Assembly: GCF_018780105.1 (NCBI RefSeq)
Contig: NZ_JADMKC010000022.1
Coordinates: 62,001 to 126,000 of the forward strand
Direction of reading: 5' to 3'
DNA length: 64,000 nucleotides
From: Thiobacillus sp.
GTDB lineage: Bacteria > Pseudomonadota > Gammaproteobacteria > Burkholderiales > Thiobacillaceae
Both the position numbers and the translations under genes were made by a program. Positions 5,899-20,200 of this stretch are shown piece after piece. The notes beneath the pieces are model-generated. The model worked only from the letters and a program-made list of their open reading frames with translations. It was not told the DNA's origin and made no database searches. The first letter of the stretch is position 1. Each line of letters starts with the position of its first letter.

Positions 5899-5929
5899 CA
5901 CGCCCTCCTTTCTATTCACAAAAAGAAAA

Positions 5930-5992
5930 CGTGAGCGCCGTTTGAAAGTTGCGTCCTGAGCCTGGCGGGTGAACCGTCGCAGCGCTCCTCAG
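5930..5992 (-). promoter_or_regulatory. SAH riboswitch
   Basis: The minus-strand leader of ahcY carries the conserved core of the SAH riboswitch: GAGGAGCGCUGCGACGG near the 5' end, GCCAGGCUCAGG in the middle and AACGGCGCUCACG at the 3' end. CUGAG (5992-5988) can pair with the CUCAG of the middle block. GAGCGC (5987-5982) pairs with GCGCUC (5938-5933), the expected pseudoknot. The ribosome site lies about 22 bases downstream of the aptamer. In the known class, SAH binding raises expression of the downstream gene, here ahcY, the holin-like gene and metF. Confidence 0.93.
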
Positions 5993-6127
5993 AACCGAGG
6001 CGGCATTCTAACCCCGGAAGTGCCTAATGCGGAAATGTCGGCATTCTTTACATCGCCCATACCAATATCTTTGCATCCGCAGCACAACCCATTGTTTTTA
6101 TTAATCGAAAAGGATTGGCGCATAAAC

Positions 6128-9355: not shown

Positions 9356-10233
9356 ACGCTGTTGTATTGACGCTGCTCAAACTGCTGGCGCGCCTGCCCT
9401 TGCCGGTGCTGCATGGCCTTGGCATCGCGCTGGGCTGGCTGGTCTACTGGGCGCCGGGGCGGCATTCGGCGCGCATGCGCAGCAATGTGTTCGACAGCGG
9501 CCTGTGCACGCCGGGCGCAGACTGCCGTCGCCTGTTGCGACTATCCGTCTCCGAATCCGGCAAAGCCATCATCGAGCTGCTGCCGGTCTGGCTGCGCCCG
9601 TATGAGCAGGTGCTGAAACTGGTCAAGGGCCGCAGCGGCTGGGAGGCGATCGATGCCGCGCGCGCAGCGGGCAAGGGCATCATCCTGATCGGCCCGCATA
9701 TCGGCTGTTTCGAACTGCTCAATCTGGATTACGCCGCGCGCCACCCGTTCACCGCCATGTACAAGCCGCCGCGCAAAGCGGTGCTGGCCGAGCTGATGCT
9801 GAACGGCCGCCAGCGCGGCCAGGCGACGCTGGTGCCGACCGACCTGTCCGGCGTGCGCGCGCAACTGGCCGCGCTCAAACGCCATGAAGCCATCGGCATC
9901 CTGCCCGACCAGGTGGCGACCGGCGGCGACGGCGTGTGGGCGCCGTTTCTGGGCCGCCCGGCCTACACGCCGACACTGGTCGCCAGCCTGCAGCGCAAGA
10001 CCGGCGCTGCGGCGTTTTTTGTCGCCGCCGAACGGCTGAGCTGGGGACGCGGCTATCACCTGCACGCCTTCCCGGTGCTCGATGCGCTGCCGGAGGACAA
10101 AGCCGCGGCCGCCCTGCGGATCAACCAGGGGGTGGAAGACGTGGTGCGCCGCTTTCCCGCGCAATACCTGTGGAGCTACAACCGCCACAAACGCCCGGGC
10201 GACGCGCCGCCCCCGGACGCAATGCCGACATGA
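9352..10233 (+). CDS. LpxL/HtrB-family lipid acyltransferase, copy 2
   Basis: Acyltransferase of 293 residues, a tandem duplicate of the preceding gene. The start ATG at 9352 overlaps the previous stop (ATGA). The catalytic motif is again HIGCFE. Similarity is very high in the C-terminal half (for example [20 protein letters not shown] and [14 protein letters not shown] in both). The two differ most just after the catalytic motif, in the region that begins [10 protein letters not shown] in copy 1 and PFTAMYKPPR in copy 2. Keeping both may allow two acyl specificities or positions, which is inference. Confidence 0.88.
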   Translation: MNAVVLTLLKLLARLPLPVLHGLGIALGWLVYWAPGRHSARMRSNVFDSGLCTPGADCRRLLRLSVSESGKAIIELLPVWLRPYEQVLKLVKGRSGWEAIDAARAAGKGIILIGPHIGCFELLNLDYAARHPFTAMYKPPRKAVLAELMLNGRQRGQATLVPTDLSGVRAQLAALKRHEAIGILPDQVATGGDGVWAPFLGRPAYTPTLVASLQRKTGAAAFFVAAERLSWGRGYHLHAFPVLDALPEDKAAAALRINQGVEDVVRRFPAQYLWSYNRHKRPGDAPPPDAMPT

Positions 10234-12925: not shown

Positions 12926-13611
12926 CCACATCCAGCGATACCCCAGCCAGCGCGACCAGCCCCCAGGCCGTCGCCGACTACCTGATCCAGCACCCGAATT
13001 TCTTCAACGATTTCCCCACCCTGCCGGCGGAATTGAACATTCCCCATCCGCACGGCACCCACGCCATTTCGATGAGCGAACGCCAGCTCATTTCAATGCG
13101 CGACAAGGTGCGGATGCTGGAAAGCAAGCTCGCCGAGCTGATCCAGTTCGGCGAGGAAAACGACGGTATTTCCGACAAGATGCAGGCGCTGGCACTGGCG
13201 CTGATGACCACGCGCACGCCGCAGGACATCCTGGTAGCGCTGACCCTGCACCTGCGCGAAGGCTTTGCGATACCGCACCACGCGCTGCGCGTGTGGAACC
13301 TGCCTGCCGACAGCGTACCCGGCCTGAGCGACCCGGTGTCCCCGGCCGCGCGCGACCAGATCTGCGCCATGGCGCAACCGGTGTGCGGCGTGCTGGCGGT
13401 GGACGAAGCGATCGACTGGTTCGGCGAAGTGTCGCCGCATCTGCGCGCGTTTGCCTGCATCCCGCTGCGGGTCGCCCCCAACAATGTCCCCGTCGGCCTG
13501 CTGGTGCTGGCCTCCGAAGAAGAAAAACGCTTCTACGCCGGCATGGGCACGCTCTATATTGAGCGCCTGGGCCAGTTGATCAGCGCCGCACTCGTGCGGA
13601 TGCAGGATTGA
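12922..13611 (+). CDS. DUF484 family protein
   Basis: Protein of 229 residues of the DUF484 family, with a GAF-like fold. The N-terminal [16 protein letters not shown] segment is the family signature, followed by a short coiled region (residues 50-80, [20 protein letters not shown] is typical) and a GAF-like domain. No catalytic residues are known. It overlaps dapF by ATGA and xerC by TTGA. The conserved link with xerC suggests a role near chromosome dimer resolution, though none is demonstrated. Confidence 0.93.
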
Positions 13612-14498
13612 CCCCGGTCGAAAGCTACCTGCAACACCTCGCCGCCGAACGGCGGCTGTCGCCGCATACCGTGGCAGCCTATCGGCGCGATCTGGTCCAA
13701 CTCGGCCAGCTGAGCGCCGGCAAACCGCTGGCCGAGCTCAGCGTCACCGACATCCGCGGCGCCATCGTCCGGCTGCGCGGCAAAAGCCTGTCGGCCGCCA
13801 GCGTGGCGCGGCACCTCTCCAGCTGGCGCGGCTTTTACGTCTTTGCCTGCCGCCGCCTCGGCTACACCCACAACCCCTGCCTCGGCCTGCGTCCGCCCAA
13901 AGCCGCCAAGGCCTTGCCACAGGTGCTGTCGCCCGACACCTGCACGCAACTGCTGAATGGCGCGCAACCCGCCACTGAAGACGACGCCCTGCAGGCGCGC
14001 GACCGCGCCATGTTCGAACTGTTCTATTCGTCCGGACTGCGCCTGTCGGAACTGGCCGATCTGGACCTGAACGACCTCGATCTGCAGTCCGGCGAAGCGG
14101 AAGTCACCGGCAAAGGCCGCAAAACCCGCATCGTACCGGTCGGGCAACAGGCGCTGAGTGCGCTGGCCGTCTGGCTGCAGCAGCGTGCAGCGCTGGCGCG
14201 CGACAACACCCCCGCGCTGTTTCTGAACCAGCGCGGCACGCGTCTGACGCCGCGCAGCATCCAGCTGCGCCTCAAGCGCTGGGCCTTGCAGGCCGGGCTG
14301 AACCAGCACGTCCACCCGCACCTGCTGCGCCACGCCTTCGCCACCCACGTGCTGCAATCGTCCGGCGACCTGCGCGCAGTGCAGGAAATGCTCGGCCACG
14401 CCAGCATCAGCACCACCCAGGTCTACACCCACCTCGACTGGCAGCACCTCGCCAAGGTCTACGACCAGGCGCACCCGCGCGCGCGCAAGAAGTCCTGA
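13608..14498 (+). CDS. xerC: Tyrosine recombinase XerC
   Basis: Site-specific recombinase that acts with XerD at dif to resolve chromosome dimers. It has 296 residues from a TTG start overlapping the DUF484 stop. All catalytic residues are visible: R145 (SGLRLSEL), K169, H238 and R241 (HPHLLRHAF), H264 (LGHAS) and Y273 (TTQVYTH). It is an ordinary XerC and lacks the extra internal domain of integron integrases, so it is not an IntI despite lying next to the cassette array. Last gene of the eight-gene block. Confidence 0.95.
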   Translation: MTPVESYLQHLAAERRLSPHTVAAYRRDLVQLGQLSAGKPLAELSVTDIRGAIVRLRGKSLSAASVARHLSSWRGFYVFACRRLGYTHNPCLGLRPPKAAKALPQVLSPDTCTQLLNGAQPATEDDALQARDRAMFELFYSSGLRLSELADLDLNDLDLQSGEAEVTGKGRKTRIVPVGQQALSALAVWLQQRAALARDNTPALFLNQRGTRLTPRSIQLRLKRWALQAGLNQHVHPHLLRHAFATHVLQSSGDLRAVQEMLGHASISTTQVYTHLDWQHLAKVYDQAHPRARKKS

Positions 14499-14612
14499 TT
14501 TTGCGGCTGGCGATCTGCGCTTGAAAGAGGGAGACAATAACGGGTGGGGGTTTGCTGGCCATGCCGTGAAATTGCGGCGTAGTCAGAGGGTGCAATTAGC
14601 GGCTTGCTGTTT

Positions 14613-14644
14613 GGGGCTTGAGGCAACAGGCAAGGTCTGGCCCT
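14613..14644. repeat. Inverted repeat, left copy, flanking cassette island
   Basis: This 32-base stretch matches the reverse complement of 16603-16634 at 29 of 32 positions. The pair brackets the integron-like region. It could be a border of the island or simply two copies of a dispersed genomic repeat. Confidence 0.7.
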
Positions 14645-14712
14645 AGCGTTCAAGGTCAGGGGCGCTGCGCGACGCTTTATCGCGCAGCGTCCCCTGCACT
14701 GAGATGTTAGGC
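14641..14712 (-). other. attC site of cassette 2, degenerate outer core
   Basis: On the minus strand the site opens with GCCTAAC (R'', 14712-14706). It continues into a long imperfect palindrome (TCGCGCAGCG against CGCTGCGCGA around an ATAAAGC loop, with one extra base in an arm). It ends with CTTGAACGCTAGGGC, where GTTRRRY would be expected. The outer core reads GCTAGGG, so the crossover GTT is mutated. The stop codon of the cassette gene lies inside R''. Confidence 0.72.
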
Positions 14713-15750
14713 CTTGGCATCCCGCATCCCTGCGCGGATGTGCGTTGCTAGTTCCGTCACTCGCTCCAAGTCAAATCCTGGGTGTTCATCGCACACCCTG
14801 TCAAAGTAGGAAGCGAGCCACTCATATTTGGCGTAAACGTCCTCGGGGCATGTTGAGTCTGCCGCTTTACTAAGGATCAGTTCACGTATTGGTGTTAATC
14901 GGTTCTGCCATAGTTTTTGATCTGTAAAAAACGGATTCCCCATGAAAGGGGGCAGAAAATTAAAAAATAGGTGCCCATCGTCGCTGGGAATCCATGGGGA
15001 GCTTCCGGTTATCTCCCGGCCTCCCCACTCAAGTGACAGTTCTTTGGAAAGAATCACGCGAGGAGTTGAAGCCACTTTACTCTCGAGTTCATATGCTTCA
15101 ATCAAAGCCGGTCCATATACCAGGCCAGAATCATGGAACAGGTGGCCTCGCGTGATGCCGCCGCGCAGGAGAAATCCAAATTGGATCAGGTTGGATGTAA
15201 GAATCAAAAGAGCATTTTGAAGAGTATCTCGGCCATGCGAATTGCTTTCGACACTAAAAACAAGGCAGTCCGAGAATTGCGTCATTACCGGATCCCCCGG
15301 CCATTTCTGGTCTTCAGGAAGCAGTTTTCTTAACGAGTTGAAGTGACTAGTAACGCCTTGCAATTGAGCGAGTGTCTTACCTAGCATCTTTACGACATGG
15401 TTGCCCTCGGAGAGAACCGCTTGCTTCCATCCCAAAATATCGAGGAATGCAACCACGCGGTTTTGATACTGGAGTGCGTCCTCGAATTTTCGAGCTTCAT
15501 CTGCTTGTCGTTCTGCCTCAATCTCTCTCTTGGGTGCGCCGGCTTCCCACTCAGCTTTTTGTAAATCTGCTTGAGCCTCTTCTTGGTCGGTGTACTCGAG
15601 GTAGTAAGTCTCGCCCGTTTGTACATTGCTCGTGAGGCTGTACCGTCGGCCGGCGTTTCTCACTGGTAAGCGAACCAACTTATCACCGTCCCGCTTAAAG
15701 ATTGGATATTCACCGGCAAGGTTTACGGTAATGCTCTGAGGCGTATTCAT
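14707..15750 (-). CDS. Integron-cassette protein with class III nucleotide-cyclase-like domain
   Basis: Protein of 347 residues with no assigned function. After a charged helical stretch (about 50-95) there is a domain with the layout of class III adenylyl/guanylyl cyclases. FLDILGW has a possible metal-binding D104, and FSDCLVFS has the second acidic residue D161. RGGITRG (196-202) and GPALIEAYELES (213-224) correspond to the usual G.AVN.AARL region, and PRVILS follows. It could make a cyclic nucleotide or be a non-catalytic relative. GC is clearly lower than in the neighbours. The start ATG lies 7 bases after the GTTAGGC core on the minus strand and the stop lies in the next attC, as in a typical gene cassette. 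Confidence 0.8.
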   Translation of the reverse strand: MNTPQSITVNLAGEYPIFKRDGDKLVRLPVRNAGRRYSLTSNVQTGETYYLEYTDQEEAQADLQKAEWEAGAPKREIEAERQADEARKFEDALQYQNRVVAFLDILGWKQAVLSEGNHVVKMLGKTLAQLQGVTSHFNSLRKLLPEDQKWPGDPVMTQFSDCLVFSVESNSHGRDTLQNALLILTSNLIQFGFLLRGGITRGHLFHDSGLVYGPALIEAYELESKVASTPRVILSKELSLEWGGREITGSSPWIPSDDGHLFFNFLPPFMGNPFFTDQKLWQNRLTPIRELILSKAADSTCPEDVYAKYEWLASYFDRVCDEHPGFDLERVTELATHIRAGMRDAKA

Positions 15751-15757
15751 GGGGGCG

Positions 15758-15835
15758 GCCTAACGTAGAGCTAACCGGCGGCGCTTTAGCGCCGTCCAGC
15801 GACCGGAGGGAGCGAGGTTGAGCGCCGGGTTAGAC
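15758..15835 (-). other. attC site of cassette 1
   Basis: Read on the minus strand: R'' GTCTAAC (15835-15829), then GCTCAACC, which pairs with GGTTAGC apart from one unpaired base, a central GGCGCTAAAGCGCC hairpin, and R' GTTAGGC (15764-15758). Order, consensus cores and the extrahelical base all fit an integron attC of 78 bases. R' marks the junction with cassette 2. Confidence 0.85.
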
Positions 15836-15899
15836 ATGGCGACCGAAAGCAAAAATCGGCGTTGGAGAGGCGGCATAAAAGAAGCAGTGGGCCAATGGA

Positions 15900-16076
15900 T
15901 CATGAGTAGATAACCGTAACGGCAACTGCTGCAGCAACAATAAGCCCAAGGATTAGATACTCCCCAATTGCCTGGGCTTTCTTTGGGAGAAGATCGAATG
16001 TGCGACCCACAACCAAGCCGGCTAGATAACCAGCGAGTTCTCCAAACGAAAGGGCGATTGCTTCAAGCAAGGGCAT
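15900..16076 (-). CDS. Small membrane protein in integron cassette 1
   Basis: Protein of 58 residues with an N-terminal amphipathic or membrane segment (LLEAIALSFGELAGYLAGLV) and a clear C-terminal transmembrane helix (YLILGLIVAAAVAVTVIY). No homologue is recognised. It starts ATG 10 bases after the GTTAGAC core (16092-16086) and ends 64 bases before its attC, the normal layout of a cassette gene. Moderate GC sets it apart from the core genome. It could be a membrane effector, a toxin or a structural peptide; the sequence does not decide. Confidence 0.65.
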   Translation of the reverse strand: MPLLEAIALSFGELAGYLAGLVVGRTFDLLPKKAQAIGEYLILGLIVAAAVAVTVIYS

Positions 16077-16085
16077 GGTTTGTCT

Positions 16086-16092
16086 GTCTAAC
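16086..16092 (-). other. Upstream recombination core of cassette array (attI- or attC-like)
   Basis: GTTAGAC on the minus strand is the junction before cassette 1 and the exact complement of that cassette's own R'' (GTCTAAC), as expected from insertion of a circular cassette. The sequence upstream (TATTTAAC) has no long attC palindrome, so this may be a relic attI. No integrase gene follows. Confidence 0.6.
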
Positions 16093-16304
16093 GTTAAATA
16101 GCCGTCCCGTGACGGAATAAAAGATTATTGGACATGTCCGGTAATCTCGTTTCGGGTGATCGGTTGAAGCGGTAGGGTCAGGCCTCGACTCTTGCTACTG
16201 CCTGAACAATTGGCTACCGAAACGGCTGTCTAAAGCCCAAATAGTAATCGCAAACGTCCCATCACCGCCGTCCTGGTTTTGACCTTCCTCCCCTCTCAGC
16301 CCCG
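16093..16304. other. Non-coding stretch beside cassette array
   Basis: No supportable gene. It contains a small hairpin (CCGTC CCGT GACGG, 16102-16115) and a GGACATGTCC palindrome. If the core at 16086-16092 is an attI, this is where a cassette promoter would lie, but I see no convincing one. Confidence 0.4.
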
Positions 16305-16429
16305 CCGGAAATTGAGCCTGCCGGGTGGATCAGCGGCAAAGGTGTTTGAGCCCCGCTCACAAAAATCAATCAAGCATTACAAAAGCGGGGCGAGTTCTTT
16401 GACGCCCACCCGGCAGGCTCGATTTCCGG
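16305..16429. repeat. 125-base nested inverted-repeat element
   Basis: The outer arms CCGGAAATTGAGCCTGCCGG... (16305-16328) and its complement at 16406-16429 match at 23 of 24 bases. Inside, GCCCCGCT and AGCGGGGC make a second inverted repeat. The whole can fold into one long hairpin. It resembles a MITE or a REP-type intergenic element. Confidence 0.75.
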
Positions 16430-16464
16430 GGTTTCGGGGATGTCGGGGTGCGTTTTCTTTGGTT

Positions 16465-16493
16465 ACTTTCTTTGTCGCATTGACAAAGAAAGT
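16465..16493. repeat. Perfect 12-base inverted repeat
   Basis: ACTTTCTTTGTC and GACAAAGAAAGT around GCATT form a perfect hairpin. With its GC-rich surroundings it looks like part of a dispersed intergenic repeat rather than a terminator of an identified gene. Confidence 0.6.
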
Positions 16494-16559
16494 GACTAGC
16501 CGCCGGGCTACCCCCGGCCAACGGGCAGTGGTCAAGCAACGTCCTCAAATCCCCCTCAA

Positions 16560-16580
16560 TCCCCCTTTTCCAAAGGGGGA
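16560..16580. repeat. Short inverted repeat TCCCCCTTT / AAAGGGGGA
   Basis: Perfect 9-base arms with a three-base loop, directly downstream of a CCCCTCAATCC stretch. Probably another piece of the composite intergenic repeat. Confidence 0.55.
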
Positions 16581-16602
16581 GGTCTGTTCACCCAGAGTCA
16601 CA

Positions 16603-16634
16603 AGGGCCAGGCCTTGCCTTTTGCCCCAAGCCCC
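16603..16634. repeat. Inverted repeat, right copy, flanking cassette island
   Basis: Partner of 14613-14644, in the opposite orientation with three mismatches in 32. It lies just before the end of the lipoprotein gene, so the cassette array and the hairpin elements are enclosed between the two copies. Confidence 0.7.
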
Positions 16635-16647
16635 TCATCCCCTTCCA

Positions 16648-17214
16648 TCACAGTCGCTCAACCGGCGGAATCAAACTGATCCACCCCCCAAGCGCACCGC
16701 GCATCTCATCCAGCGTGAGATGCCGCATCAGCCCCCGGTTACCGGGCGCCATCTGATCCCAGGCGCAGCGCAGGCTGCGCACGTCCGGCCGGGCGGGGTC
16801 ATGCAGGCGAAACGTGGTGATGTAATACAGAAAACTCGGGGTGCCATCGTCGTAGACATGGCGTGCCTTGAGTAGCGGCGATGAGGCTGCGGCCGTAATC
16901 GTGCTGATGCTGCGCGTGACCTGCGTCACCTCGAAGCGTCCCGGTTGCAGCAACTGCACCTGATCGCTCAGCGTGTTCACTTCCATGATGCAGAACGGAT
17001 CCTGTTCCTGCACGCCGTTACGCGGCACGATCTGGCCGTACTGCAAACGCACCGTCGCCGCGCCGGGATTGATCGGCAGCACCTGATTGAGCTGCACCGA
17101 CACGCCGGGTGGAAACGCGTAATTCGGCGACGCCGGATCGGGCGAGCCCAGGCTGCCACAGCCGCCGATTGCCACCATTCCAAACACTGCACTGACCCCT
17201 ATTCCGCTTCGCAT
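16648..17214 (-). CDS. Putative lipoprotein in RND operon
   Basis: Protein of 188 residues with a lipoprotein signal (hydrophobic stretch then AIGGC, lipidated Cys at residue 19). The mature part has no recognised domain. It starts 12 bases after the RND pump gene on the same strand, so it is likely co-transcribed with the pump and its membrane-fusion protein. It is too short and lacks the helical repeats to be a TolC-type outer-membrane factor. Function unknown. Confidence 0.8.
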   Translation of the reverse strand: MRSGIGVSAVFGMVAIGGCGSLGSPDPASPNYAFPPGVSVQLNQVLPINPGAATVRLQYGQIVPRNGVQEQDPFCIMEVNTLSDQVQLLQPGRFEVTQVTRSISTITAAASSPLLKARHVYDDGTPSFLYYITTFRLHDPARPDVRSLRCAWDQMAPGNRGLMRHLTLDEMRGALGGWISLIPPVERL

Positions 17215-17226
17215 ATCTGCCTCCTG

Positions 17227-20200
17227 TCACTCTGGCTGAATCCTGAACCATGCCGCATACAAAGCCGGCAGGAAAAACAGCGTGAGGAAAGTCGCCGCCA
17301 CTAGCCCACCCATCACGGCGAACGCCATCGGCCCCCAGAAGATCGAGCGCGACAGCGGAATCATCGCCAGCGCCGCGGCCGCTGCGGTGAGCGTAATCGG
17401 CCGCATCCGCCGCACGGTGGATTCGATGATCGCATCCCACTGCGACAGACCGCGGGCGACGTCCTGCTGGATCTGGTCGACCAGGATCACCGAGTTGCGC
17501 ATGATCATGCCGGCCAGCGAGATGATGCCGAGCAGGGCGACGAAGCCCATCGGCTGGCCGCTCGCGAGCAGGGCGATCGCCACGCCGATGATGCCGAGCG
17601 GCGCAGTCAGCACCACCAGCAGCGCGCGCGAGAAATTGCCGAGCTGCAGCATCAGCAGGGTGAAGGTGGTGATCAGGATCAGCGGCCACGAGGCGCCGAT
17701 GGCGGTGTTGGCCTTGGCGCTGCTTTCCACCGGGCCGCCGCTTTCCAGCCGGAAGCCCGGCGGCAGCTGCGCCTTGAACGCGTCGACCTGCGGCGCCAGG
17801 GCGGCGACGATGGTGGCGGGTTGCGTCTTGCCGACGGGATCGCCGCGCACCGCGATGGTCGGCAGGCGATCGCGCCGCCAGATCACGCCGTCCTCGAACA
17901 CTGGCTGGAGTTTGGCAATCTGCCCCAGCGTCACGCTCTGCCCATTGAAGTTGCCGATCGGCAGCGCGCGCAGCGCGTCGACATCGGTATGCTCGCTGCG
18001 CGGGGTGCGCAGCACCACGTCGATCAGCAGATCGTTTTCGCGAAACTGGGTGAGATTGACGCCGACCAGCTGCAAGGCCAGCACGCGCCCGACCTGTTCC
18101 GAGCTCAGGCCCAGCGCCTTGATCTTGTCCTGGTCCAGCTGCGCCTTCATGGTCAGCGACTGTTCGTTCCAGTCGAGGTTCACCGCCGTGACATCCGTTT
18201 GCGCGGCGACGATCTTGCGCAGTTTCTCCGCCTCGATCTTGAGTTGCGGGATATCGCTGCCGGAGAGCCGGTACTGCACCGGATAGCCAGCCGGCGGGCC
18301 ATATTCGAAGCGCACGGCGCGGCCCCGCACATTGGGGAAATCGGTTTCGAACAGCTGGCGGATGCGGGCAATTTCGCGCTCGCGCGCCGGCACGTCCTGC
18401 GCGATCACCACCAACTGCGCGAAGTTGCGGTTGTTCAGGCGCTGGTCCAGACTCAGCACGAAGCGCGGCGCGCCCTGGCCGATGTAGTTGAGGACATGCG
18501 CCACGTCCTTGTCCTGCCGCAACAGGGATTCGAGCCGGACCGCCTCAGCGCGGGTGGCGTCGATGGAGGCGCCTTCCGGCAGCCACATCTCGATCAGGAT
18601 TTCCTGGCGGTCGGACTGCGGAAAGAACTGCTTTTCCACCTTCTGCATCGCCGCCACGCCGACGACCAGCGCCAGCACCGTCAGCGCAATCACCGTGCGG
18701 CGATGCGTGACGCACCAGGTGACCACTGCGCGAAAGCGCCGGTAAAACGGCGTGTGATAGCTTGCGTCCTCGTCGGCGACCCGATGCGTCGGCTTCAACA
18801 GAACGTAGCCCAGATAGGGCGTGACCACCACCGCCACCAGCCAGGACGACAACAGCGCGATCGTCGTCACCGCGAAAATGGCGAAGGTGTATTCGCCCAC
18901 CATCGACTTGGCCAGCGCGATCGGCAGGAAGGCGGTGGCGGTCAGCAGCGTGCCGGTGAGCATCGGAAACGCGGTCGACTGGAAGGCATAGGTCGCCGCC
19001 TCGAAGCGTCCCCAGCCGGCTTCGAGCTTGTGCGCCATCATTTCGACCGCGATGATGGCATCGTCCACCAAGAGGCCGAGCGAGATGATGAGCGCGCCGG
19101 TGGAGATGCGGTGCAGGTCGATGTCGAACAGCCACATCACGCTGAAGGTGATCGCCAGCACCACCGGAATGCTCAGCGTCACCACCAGGCCCGCGCGCCA
19201 TTTCAGCGCCAGAAAAGTCACTGCCAGCACGATGGCGACGGCTTCCAGAAAGCTTTGCATGAACAGCTTGACCGCACGGCTGACGATGCTGGGTTGGTCG
19301 TGAATCTGGCGTATTTCAACGCCCACCGGCAGCGATTTTTGCAGTGCATCCACGGCCGCGGCGACGGCGCGGCCCATCACCACCACATCGCCGCCGTCCG
19401 CCAGCGACACCCCGAGCAGCACCGCCGCTTCGCCCTGCGAACGGATTTCGGTAGCGGGCGGATCTTCGTAGCGCCGCGTCACCTCGGCGATATCGCCCAG
19501 CCGCAGGCTGCGCCCCCCCACCTTGACGATGCCTTCGCGCAGGCGCTCGACATCGGAATACGGCCCCGACACGCGCAGCGGAATCGACAGCACGTCGTTT
19601 TCCACCCGGCCGTTGGCCACCACGCTGTTCTGTTCCTGCACCGCCTGGATCAGCTGTTGCGCGGTGATCCCGAGGGTGGCGAGTTTCTGCGTCTGCATCT
19701 CGATGTAGATTTTTTCCGGCACCACGCCGAACAGTTCGACCTTGCCGACGTTGGGCAGACGCCGCACCTCGCGCTGCGCGTCTTCGCCGATTTCTCTCAA
19801 ATCGGCGCGGGTGAAACCGTCGCCGGTGATGGCGTAGATCGAGCCGAAGGTGTCGCCGAATTCGTCGTTGAAAAACGGCCCCTGCACCCCGGCCGGCAGT
19901 TGCGGCTTGAGATCGCCGATTTTCTTGCGGATCTGGTACCACACCGCCGCCACGTCGCGCCCGCGCACGGTCTCCTTGATGTTGACGAACAGCGCGGTCT
20001 CGCCCGGTTTGGCGTAGCTCGCCACGTAGTCCAGCTCGGGCAGTTCCTGCAGCTTTTTCTCGATGCGCTCGGTCAGCTGCTCCGACACTTCCTGCGCCGT
20101 CGCCCCCGGCCACTGCGCCTGGATCAGCATGGTCTTGAAGGTAAACGGCGGATCTTCGGCCTGCCCCAGCTCAAGATAGGAACGTACGCCCACCAGCAGG

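Follow-up and report, generated by a model that had tools for sequence, protein, structure and literature searches.

A putative orphan attI heads a two-cassette array near xerC in Thiobacillus and has counterparts dispersed over the genus

The DNA analysed here, hereafter the window, is a stretch of 64,000 nucleotides (C9:62001-126000) of a 62-contig draft genome of Thiobacillus sp., labelled G000. Its minus strand carries a small integron array in the order core, small ORF, attC, ORF and attC, as had been claimed in a previous sequence-only reading. The core GTTAGAC (16086..16092, minus strand) is followed on the same strand by the 58-aa ORF of cassette 1 (15900..16076), attC1 (15758..15835), the 347-aa ORF of cassette 2 (14707..15750) and attC2 (14641..14712), which ends in GCTAGGG. 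The array is flanked by the convergent xerC (13608..14498, plus strand; TIGR02224, 357.9 bits, above the cut-off) and, upstream, by a gene of 188 aa (16648..17214, minus strand) that is co-directional with the cassettes, has no Pfam or NCBIfam family match and has homologues in all the 24 other genomes of the genus that were searched. An efflux-type gene of the AcrB family points the same way as the cassettes. The insertion had been placed after xerC, and xerC does flank it, but the cassettes run against xerC and along the direction of the efflux-type and the 188-aa genes.

Both attC sites were found with a covariance model (R3) trained on 22 attC sites from elsewhere in the genome, the two window sites being excluded. 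attC1 scored 58.7 bits (E 4.2e-12) and attC2 49.7 bits (E 6.4e-10), which bears out the covariance check that had been proposed; the only third match up to E 10 in the 64-kb window reached 14.1 bits (E 0.31), 35 bits below the weaker attC. Another covariance model, R1, agrees on both sites, which its training set contains by construction. The complementarity of each R'' to its own upstream core, the main argument of the earlier reading, holds for 7/7 letters at both junctions, GTTAGAC being the exact complement of the R'' of cassette 1. The final R', GCTAGGG, differs by two letters from what would complement its own R'', a deviation that is expected of a boundary belonging to the target. Near-identical relatives of attC1 occur elsewhere in the genome, on contigs C24 (two), C53 and C56. 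A pairing rule based on IUPAC patterns only gave 82 forward against 34 reversed-control matches and was used for leads only. With Rfam at gathering thresholds, the sole match in the window is an SAH riboswitch at 5926-5996 on the minus strand (59 bits, gathering 37).

The array is headed by an attI of the type designated here as class 1 (16090..16160, minus strand), with the crossover in the GTT at 16092-16090. It shares 66/71 nt with the attI next to intI in G048, a sister Thiobacillus, and 64/71 nt with the intI-side attI of G008, while comparison with four further genomes gave 52-69 identities across 58-78 nt. Two imperfect palindromes lie inside it, at 16123-16146 and 16102-16115. This class of attI is located 136-138 bp from a divergent IntI match in six genomes and beside a partial intI in a seventh, and it also occurs upstream of the first core at C37:72.9 kb in the window's own genome. 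At the window site the intI-side region is reduced to about 71-78 nt, and a tblastn search with three IntI types recovered no intI remnant in 14600-17300 (best E 1.7). Thus, of the components of a complete integron, the attI at the head and the cassettes at the core are present and the intI beside the attI is absent. As GTTAGAC is the crossover end of an intI-associated attI class, the array possesses an attI and lacks intI only; judged by its sequence, the window pair is an orphan attI with two cassettes and no random off-target insertion. The array had been described as one without an integrase, which is right for its neighbourhood, but its own attI had been missed. The CALIN label given to it agrees with the definition used by IntegronFinder, two or more attC sites without a neighbouring integrase, as worded in the accessible part of the source (PMC9024848).

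Neither cassette product has a match in Pfam, NCBIfam or PADLOC. The 58-aa product of cassette 1, probably a small membrane protein as judged by eye, has 13 homologues, all of them hypothetical or without a reliable name. The product of cassette 2 has 114 homologues, the best at 90% identity, and its AlphaFold2 model (pLDDT 88.6, pTM 0.73) has as its top Foldseek match the guanylyl cyclase Cya2 (E 2.1e-5, TM (target) 0.51, rmsd 6.8). The best solved structures are class III nucleotidyl cyclases, with a uridylate cyclase at rank 26, and a fold like that of class III nucleotidyl cyclases is predicted for the C-terminal part. D104 and D161 are invariant among 31 aligned sequences and are inferred to bind metal.

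The slot between xerC and the 188-aa gene is occupied differently in relatives. A PPK2-family gene (PF03976, tested on L044) lies there in five loci (L042, L043, L044, L046 and L050) and is missing from the window slot (14499-16647). The empty site that had been expected downstream of xerC was sought in relatives and not found, most of them carrying the PPK2-family gene or other DNA there; an empty site was found at another orphan site, described below. No orthologue of the window's orphan site was found in relatives, and so neither cassette exchange nor an empty allele was seen at this place. L044 shares a repeat near the array, but its sequence departs from that of the window some 140 nt ahead of the attI and some 50 nt ahead of the last core. 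In the nearest relative, L041, the contig stops within a repeat, with xerC and its flank not recovered from that genome. The cassette pair is bracketed by a 33-nt inverted repeat, of which one copy ends in the last core on the xerC side (14613..14645, plus strand) and its inverted partner lies on the other side (16602..16634, minus strand). One further near match occurs in the genome and a copy adjoins the 188-aa gene in L041; the repeat was considered as a pair of transposon ends and rejected, with that one near match and no other support. L044 also carries, at 9407-9568 beside the intact gene, a second, partial copy of the xerC C-terminus with 94% identity to the window xerC over 54 residues.

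The absence of intI from the window, as claimed, was borne out, since the only window match in the search of the genome was xerC, below the cut-off. The genome does have an intI on another contig (C37:3269-4210, 494.5 bits against a cut-off of 265), the sole integrase above the cut-off, which is a different allele with a different attI. tadA lies downstream of it on the same strand (NF008113, 225 bits, cut-off 150), and attC sites lie on the side opposite tadA. The IntI cognate to the attI class of the window, IntI-A, is 66% identical to this resident IntI. R1, whose training included 14 attC sites of this genome, gave 34 attC candidates genome-wide, 31 of them at E < 0.01. Groups of attC sites far from intI are located on C9, C14 (two places), C21, C29 and C37 (at 41 and 71 kb), and the stretches near contig ends may belong to one broken array. 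Two sequences recur ahead of the first cores of such groups, one of them being the class-1 attI. Eleven orphan attI copies, four of class 1 and seven of class 2, were identified in this draft genome. In the resident array, a transposase-like ORF, IS110-like by eye, breaks the cassette/attC region at about 530-1930 of L006 (G000:C37), and the attC at 1919-1998 is without its R'.

Class-1 attI and intI stand beside tadA matches of 156-157 aa in G048, G043, G052 and G016, while in G008 and G021 the tadA match beside them is only partial. Many Thiobacillus genomes carry before tadA intI alleles that are about 59-96% identical to the resident one and have different attI. The integron platform at tadA seems to have been replaced in place.

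The distribution of the two attI classes was examined in 56 Thiobacillus genomes, mostly drafts or MAGs. The class-1 pattern (up to three mismatches) gave 21 copies in 15 genomes and the class-2 pattern (up to one mismatch) 65 copies in 32, while reversed patterns gave no match in any genome for either class. The surroundings were read for 81 of the 86 copies, comprising all 21 of class 1 and 60 of the 65 of class 2 (left out were G058:C77, G068:C108, G021:C19, G001:C66 and G070:C8). Eleven of these adjoin an intI match (8 full, 3 partial) and the other 70 are orphans. In the same sample, attC is present in at least 54 genomes and intI above the cut-off in 38. Contig G021:C39 (L289/L297) carries a pair of class-1 attI copies on the same strand with 1.6 kb between them, of which one adjoins intI and the other lies beyond it.

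An attC follows on the same strand in 51 of the 70 orphans, at a median distance of 579 nt; it is absent downstream at 19, for 15 of which at least 1.2 kb were read. Five weak attC matches (E 0.01 to 0.056) of 136 were excluded from the analysis of these loci. The first R'' matches the complement of the attI core without a mismatch in 36 of the 51 and with at most one in 45, compared to a mean of 4.1 exact fits and a maximum of 13 in 5000 shuffled pairings. The fit is exact in 7/7 in the window's own genome, on whose sites the attC model was trained. Outside it, attC sites were found for 44 of 59 orphans, with 29/44 exact and 38/44 within one letter. Cores at least two mismatches off occur in six orphans, three of which resemble register shifts. 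Orientation relative to the upstream gene was scored with a crude longest-ORF rule for 62 of 69 sites (7 were too short, and one tandem site was excluded), and of the 42 clear cases 30 are co-directional and 12 opposed; as this rule calls the window site opposed although its annotated upstream gene is co-directional, co-orientation is only a hint.

Three orphan sites are orthologous between genomes and hold differing cassettes. In each, an identity of 76-92% over 1.1-2.0 kb stops +1 to +10 past the GTT, after which the cassettes differ. G018 and G043 are 91.5% identical over 1121 nt until +2, then differ, and align again at 88.8% beyond the cassettes; a partial third copy in the window's genome (G000:C34) has both flanks and the attI core region in common with this site and its own content. 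G041 and G005 are 91.4% identical over 2020 columns until +2, and the flank returns at 96.7%. At the third site (G052, G057, G068 and G006), an identity of 76-83% extends over about 1.5 kb until +1 to +10, and the far flank resumes among G052, G057 and G068. A fourth pair (G016/G041, L208/L259) was considered as an example of turnover and rejected, its cassettes being related. No intI match was found around the three shared sites in the DNA fetched there. Service in trans predicts that cassettes differ, that homology breaks off at the crossover and that the common upstream DNA lacks intI, as is observed here, and this pattern suggests cassette turnover at some orphan sites other than that of the window. 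Homologous recombination that exchanged entire loci could also account for the cassette differences. For G005 and G006, both near complete, a search at E 1e-60 gave no intI match, and exchange there would thus need an integrase that has since been lost or is not assembled.

The third of these sites has empty alleles in G044, G005, G016, G071, G055 and G019, which are without attI and cassettes. Here the stop codon of the upstream gene is directly followed by a hairpin and then by a superoxide-dismutase-like gene. Filled alleles have attI, cassettes and attC placed between the same stop codon and the hairpin, which by eye resembles a terminator. The cassettes, being placed between the stop codon and a terminator-like hairpin, could therefore be read from the promoter of the upstream gene.

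Many class-2 orphans start with one of two conserved left termini, found (with up to two errors, at -330 to -200) in 19/53 class-2 orphans against 3/408 control stretches further upstream. An inverted right terminus lies 42-55 nt past the last attC in 14/44 loci, against 1/44 for the forward word. In the four class-2 loci that bear intI, the left terminus is located on the far side of intI (-1284 to -1317). At one class-2 site (G056:C45, L278), the last 26 intI codons survive at 2373-2450, upstream of the class-2 attI, with 92% identity; this locus is an internal deletion of intI caught midway. For part of class 2, this pattern points to a transposon-like unit with copies that have lost intI. 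Neither a transposase nor, in a search by eye around the termini, a target duplication was identified for these units. The left ends of class-1 orphans, that of the window among them, are ragged, falling between about -45 and about -193, and termini of the class-2 kind are absent.

These data bear on how the window array came about. It is quite probable that it is an orphan integron, with an attI, two cassettes and no intI in cis, and that it is one of many dispersed attI sites served in trans. A different history, in which a former integron at this place lost its intI by deletion and the site is now inert, would explain why only the short intI-side region is left with no intI remnant around it, and the ragged upstream ends of the class-1 orphans fit such plain decay, as does the class-2 site at which intI codons persist. 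This frozen relic is nevertheless the less favoured and rather doubtful, as other class-1 orphan sites common to several species hold different cassettes; moreover, the window has exact complementarity at both junctions and its attC1 belongs to a family common in the genome, for which reasons the insertion does not look very old.

Three other origins have far less to commend them. Off-target insertion of cassettes at a random attG site is the usual account of small CALINs and one of three routes proposed for them, as far as the accessible text goes (PMC8618304), and the intI elsewhere in the genome could be its source; the target here, however, is an attI of the class found beside intI in sister species, which makes such an insertion extremely unlikely. 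A transposon-like unit bounded by inverted termini could have delivered attI and cassettes, as holds for part of class 2. This origin gains some appeal from the short inverted repeat bracketing the window region and is still very unlikely, given that the window attI is of class 1, that the right terminus occurs in 0/12 class-1 loci and that a left terminus of the class-2 type was not found at the window site. The window repeat is, moreover, a different sequence, one copy of which lies near the 188-aa gene in a relative as well. As for chance palindromes that are no attC at all, nothing speaks in their favour, and with both sites recovered by R3 so far above the next match in the window they are scarcely conceivable.

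The reading of the window as an orphan integron may be extended to a distributed integron, a proposal that appears evenly poised between right and wrong. IntI produced from one place would serve many scattered attI sites, some of which would have been dispersed as units that have lost intI and end in inverted termini, and others of which would lie between a host stop codon and a terminator, the window being a leftover of an earlier IntI allele of the tadA locus. In this scheme, an IntI encoded elsewhere in the cell would insert and remove cassettes at orphan attI in trans, the folded bottom strand of attC recombining with attI as double strand, the crossover lying between G and TT, and cassettes behind host genes would be read from the host promoter. 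The class-1 orphans would derive from the earlier allele at tadA, and the resident IntI, which is a different allele, may still act on them or may have ceased to do so. The attI of the window may likewise be a putative substrate that an IntI still recombines.

Some known systems resemble parts of this arrangement. Cassettes landing outside the integron platform have reportedly been described by Loot et al. (2024) as attG insertions; attG is unlike attI and attC, and the window site is an attI. Class 1 integrons that are flanked by MITEs or lack intI are said to have been described by Gillings (2009), and integron mobilization units are pieces of integrons moved as a non-autonomous unit. The class-2 units are comparable to these, as far as such units are described, in that integron pieces moved non-autonomously. 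They differ in having other termini and in being chromosomal, multi-copy and furnished with attI, and the window copy is no such unit. The sedentary chromosomal integron at tadA in Thiobacillus has intact class-1 attI copies, whereas the copy in the window is at xerC and without intI.

Three origins are proposed for CALINs in the accessible parts of two sources, two of them being intI loss and insertion off target (PMC9024848, PMC8618304). The window likewise has two attC sites and no intI in its neighbourhood, but differs in that its cluster has an attI of its own, of a class that intact integrons also carry, and belongs to a numerous set of such sites. A CALIN of the Shewanella prophage M16-3 also has its own attI; it is a single pair in a prophage, and the accessible part of that source describes neither genus-wide dispersal nor differing cassettes at orthologous sites (PMC9892861). 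In Xanthomonas, roughly half of the genomes have non-ilvD CALINs, which sit at a small number of conserved loci distant from intI, and no attI is described at those loci in the accessible text, where the pattern is interpreted as ancestral integron activity (PMC12444791). CALINs, off-target insertion and the in-trans mobilisation of CALIN cassettes are thus already in print, to judge from the accessible parts of three sources (PMC8618304, PMC9668308, PMC12444791). Within the open-licence literature, covered by titles and the beginnings of abstracts and with subscription papers mostly outside it, no description was found of attI dispersed over a genus with differing cassettes at orthologous sites, and in that scope the genus-wide dispersal of attI with cassettes differing at orthologous sites is new.

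Integrons are usually described as one platform consisting of intI, an adjoining attI and one array. If the present proposal is true, a single integrase would be able to write at many positions that differ in their expression context, and a part of the CALINs would be functional docking sites instead of debris. Exchange at dispersed attI can be tested directly in Thiobacillus, where filled and empty alleles of orthologous sites exist.
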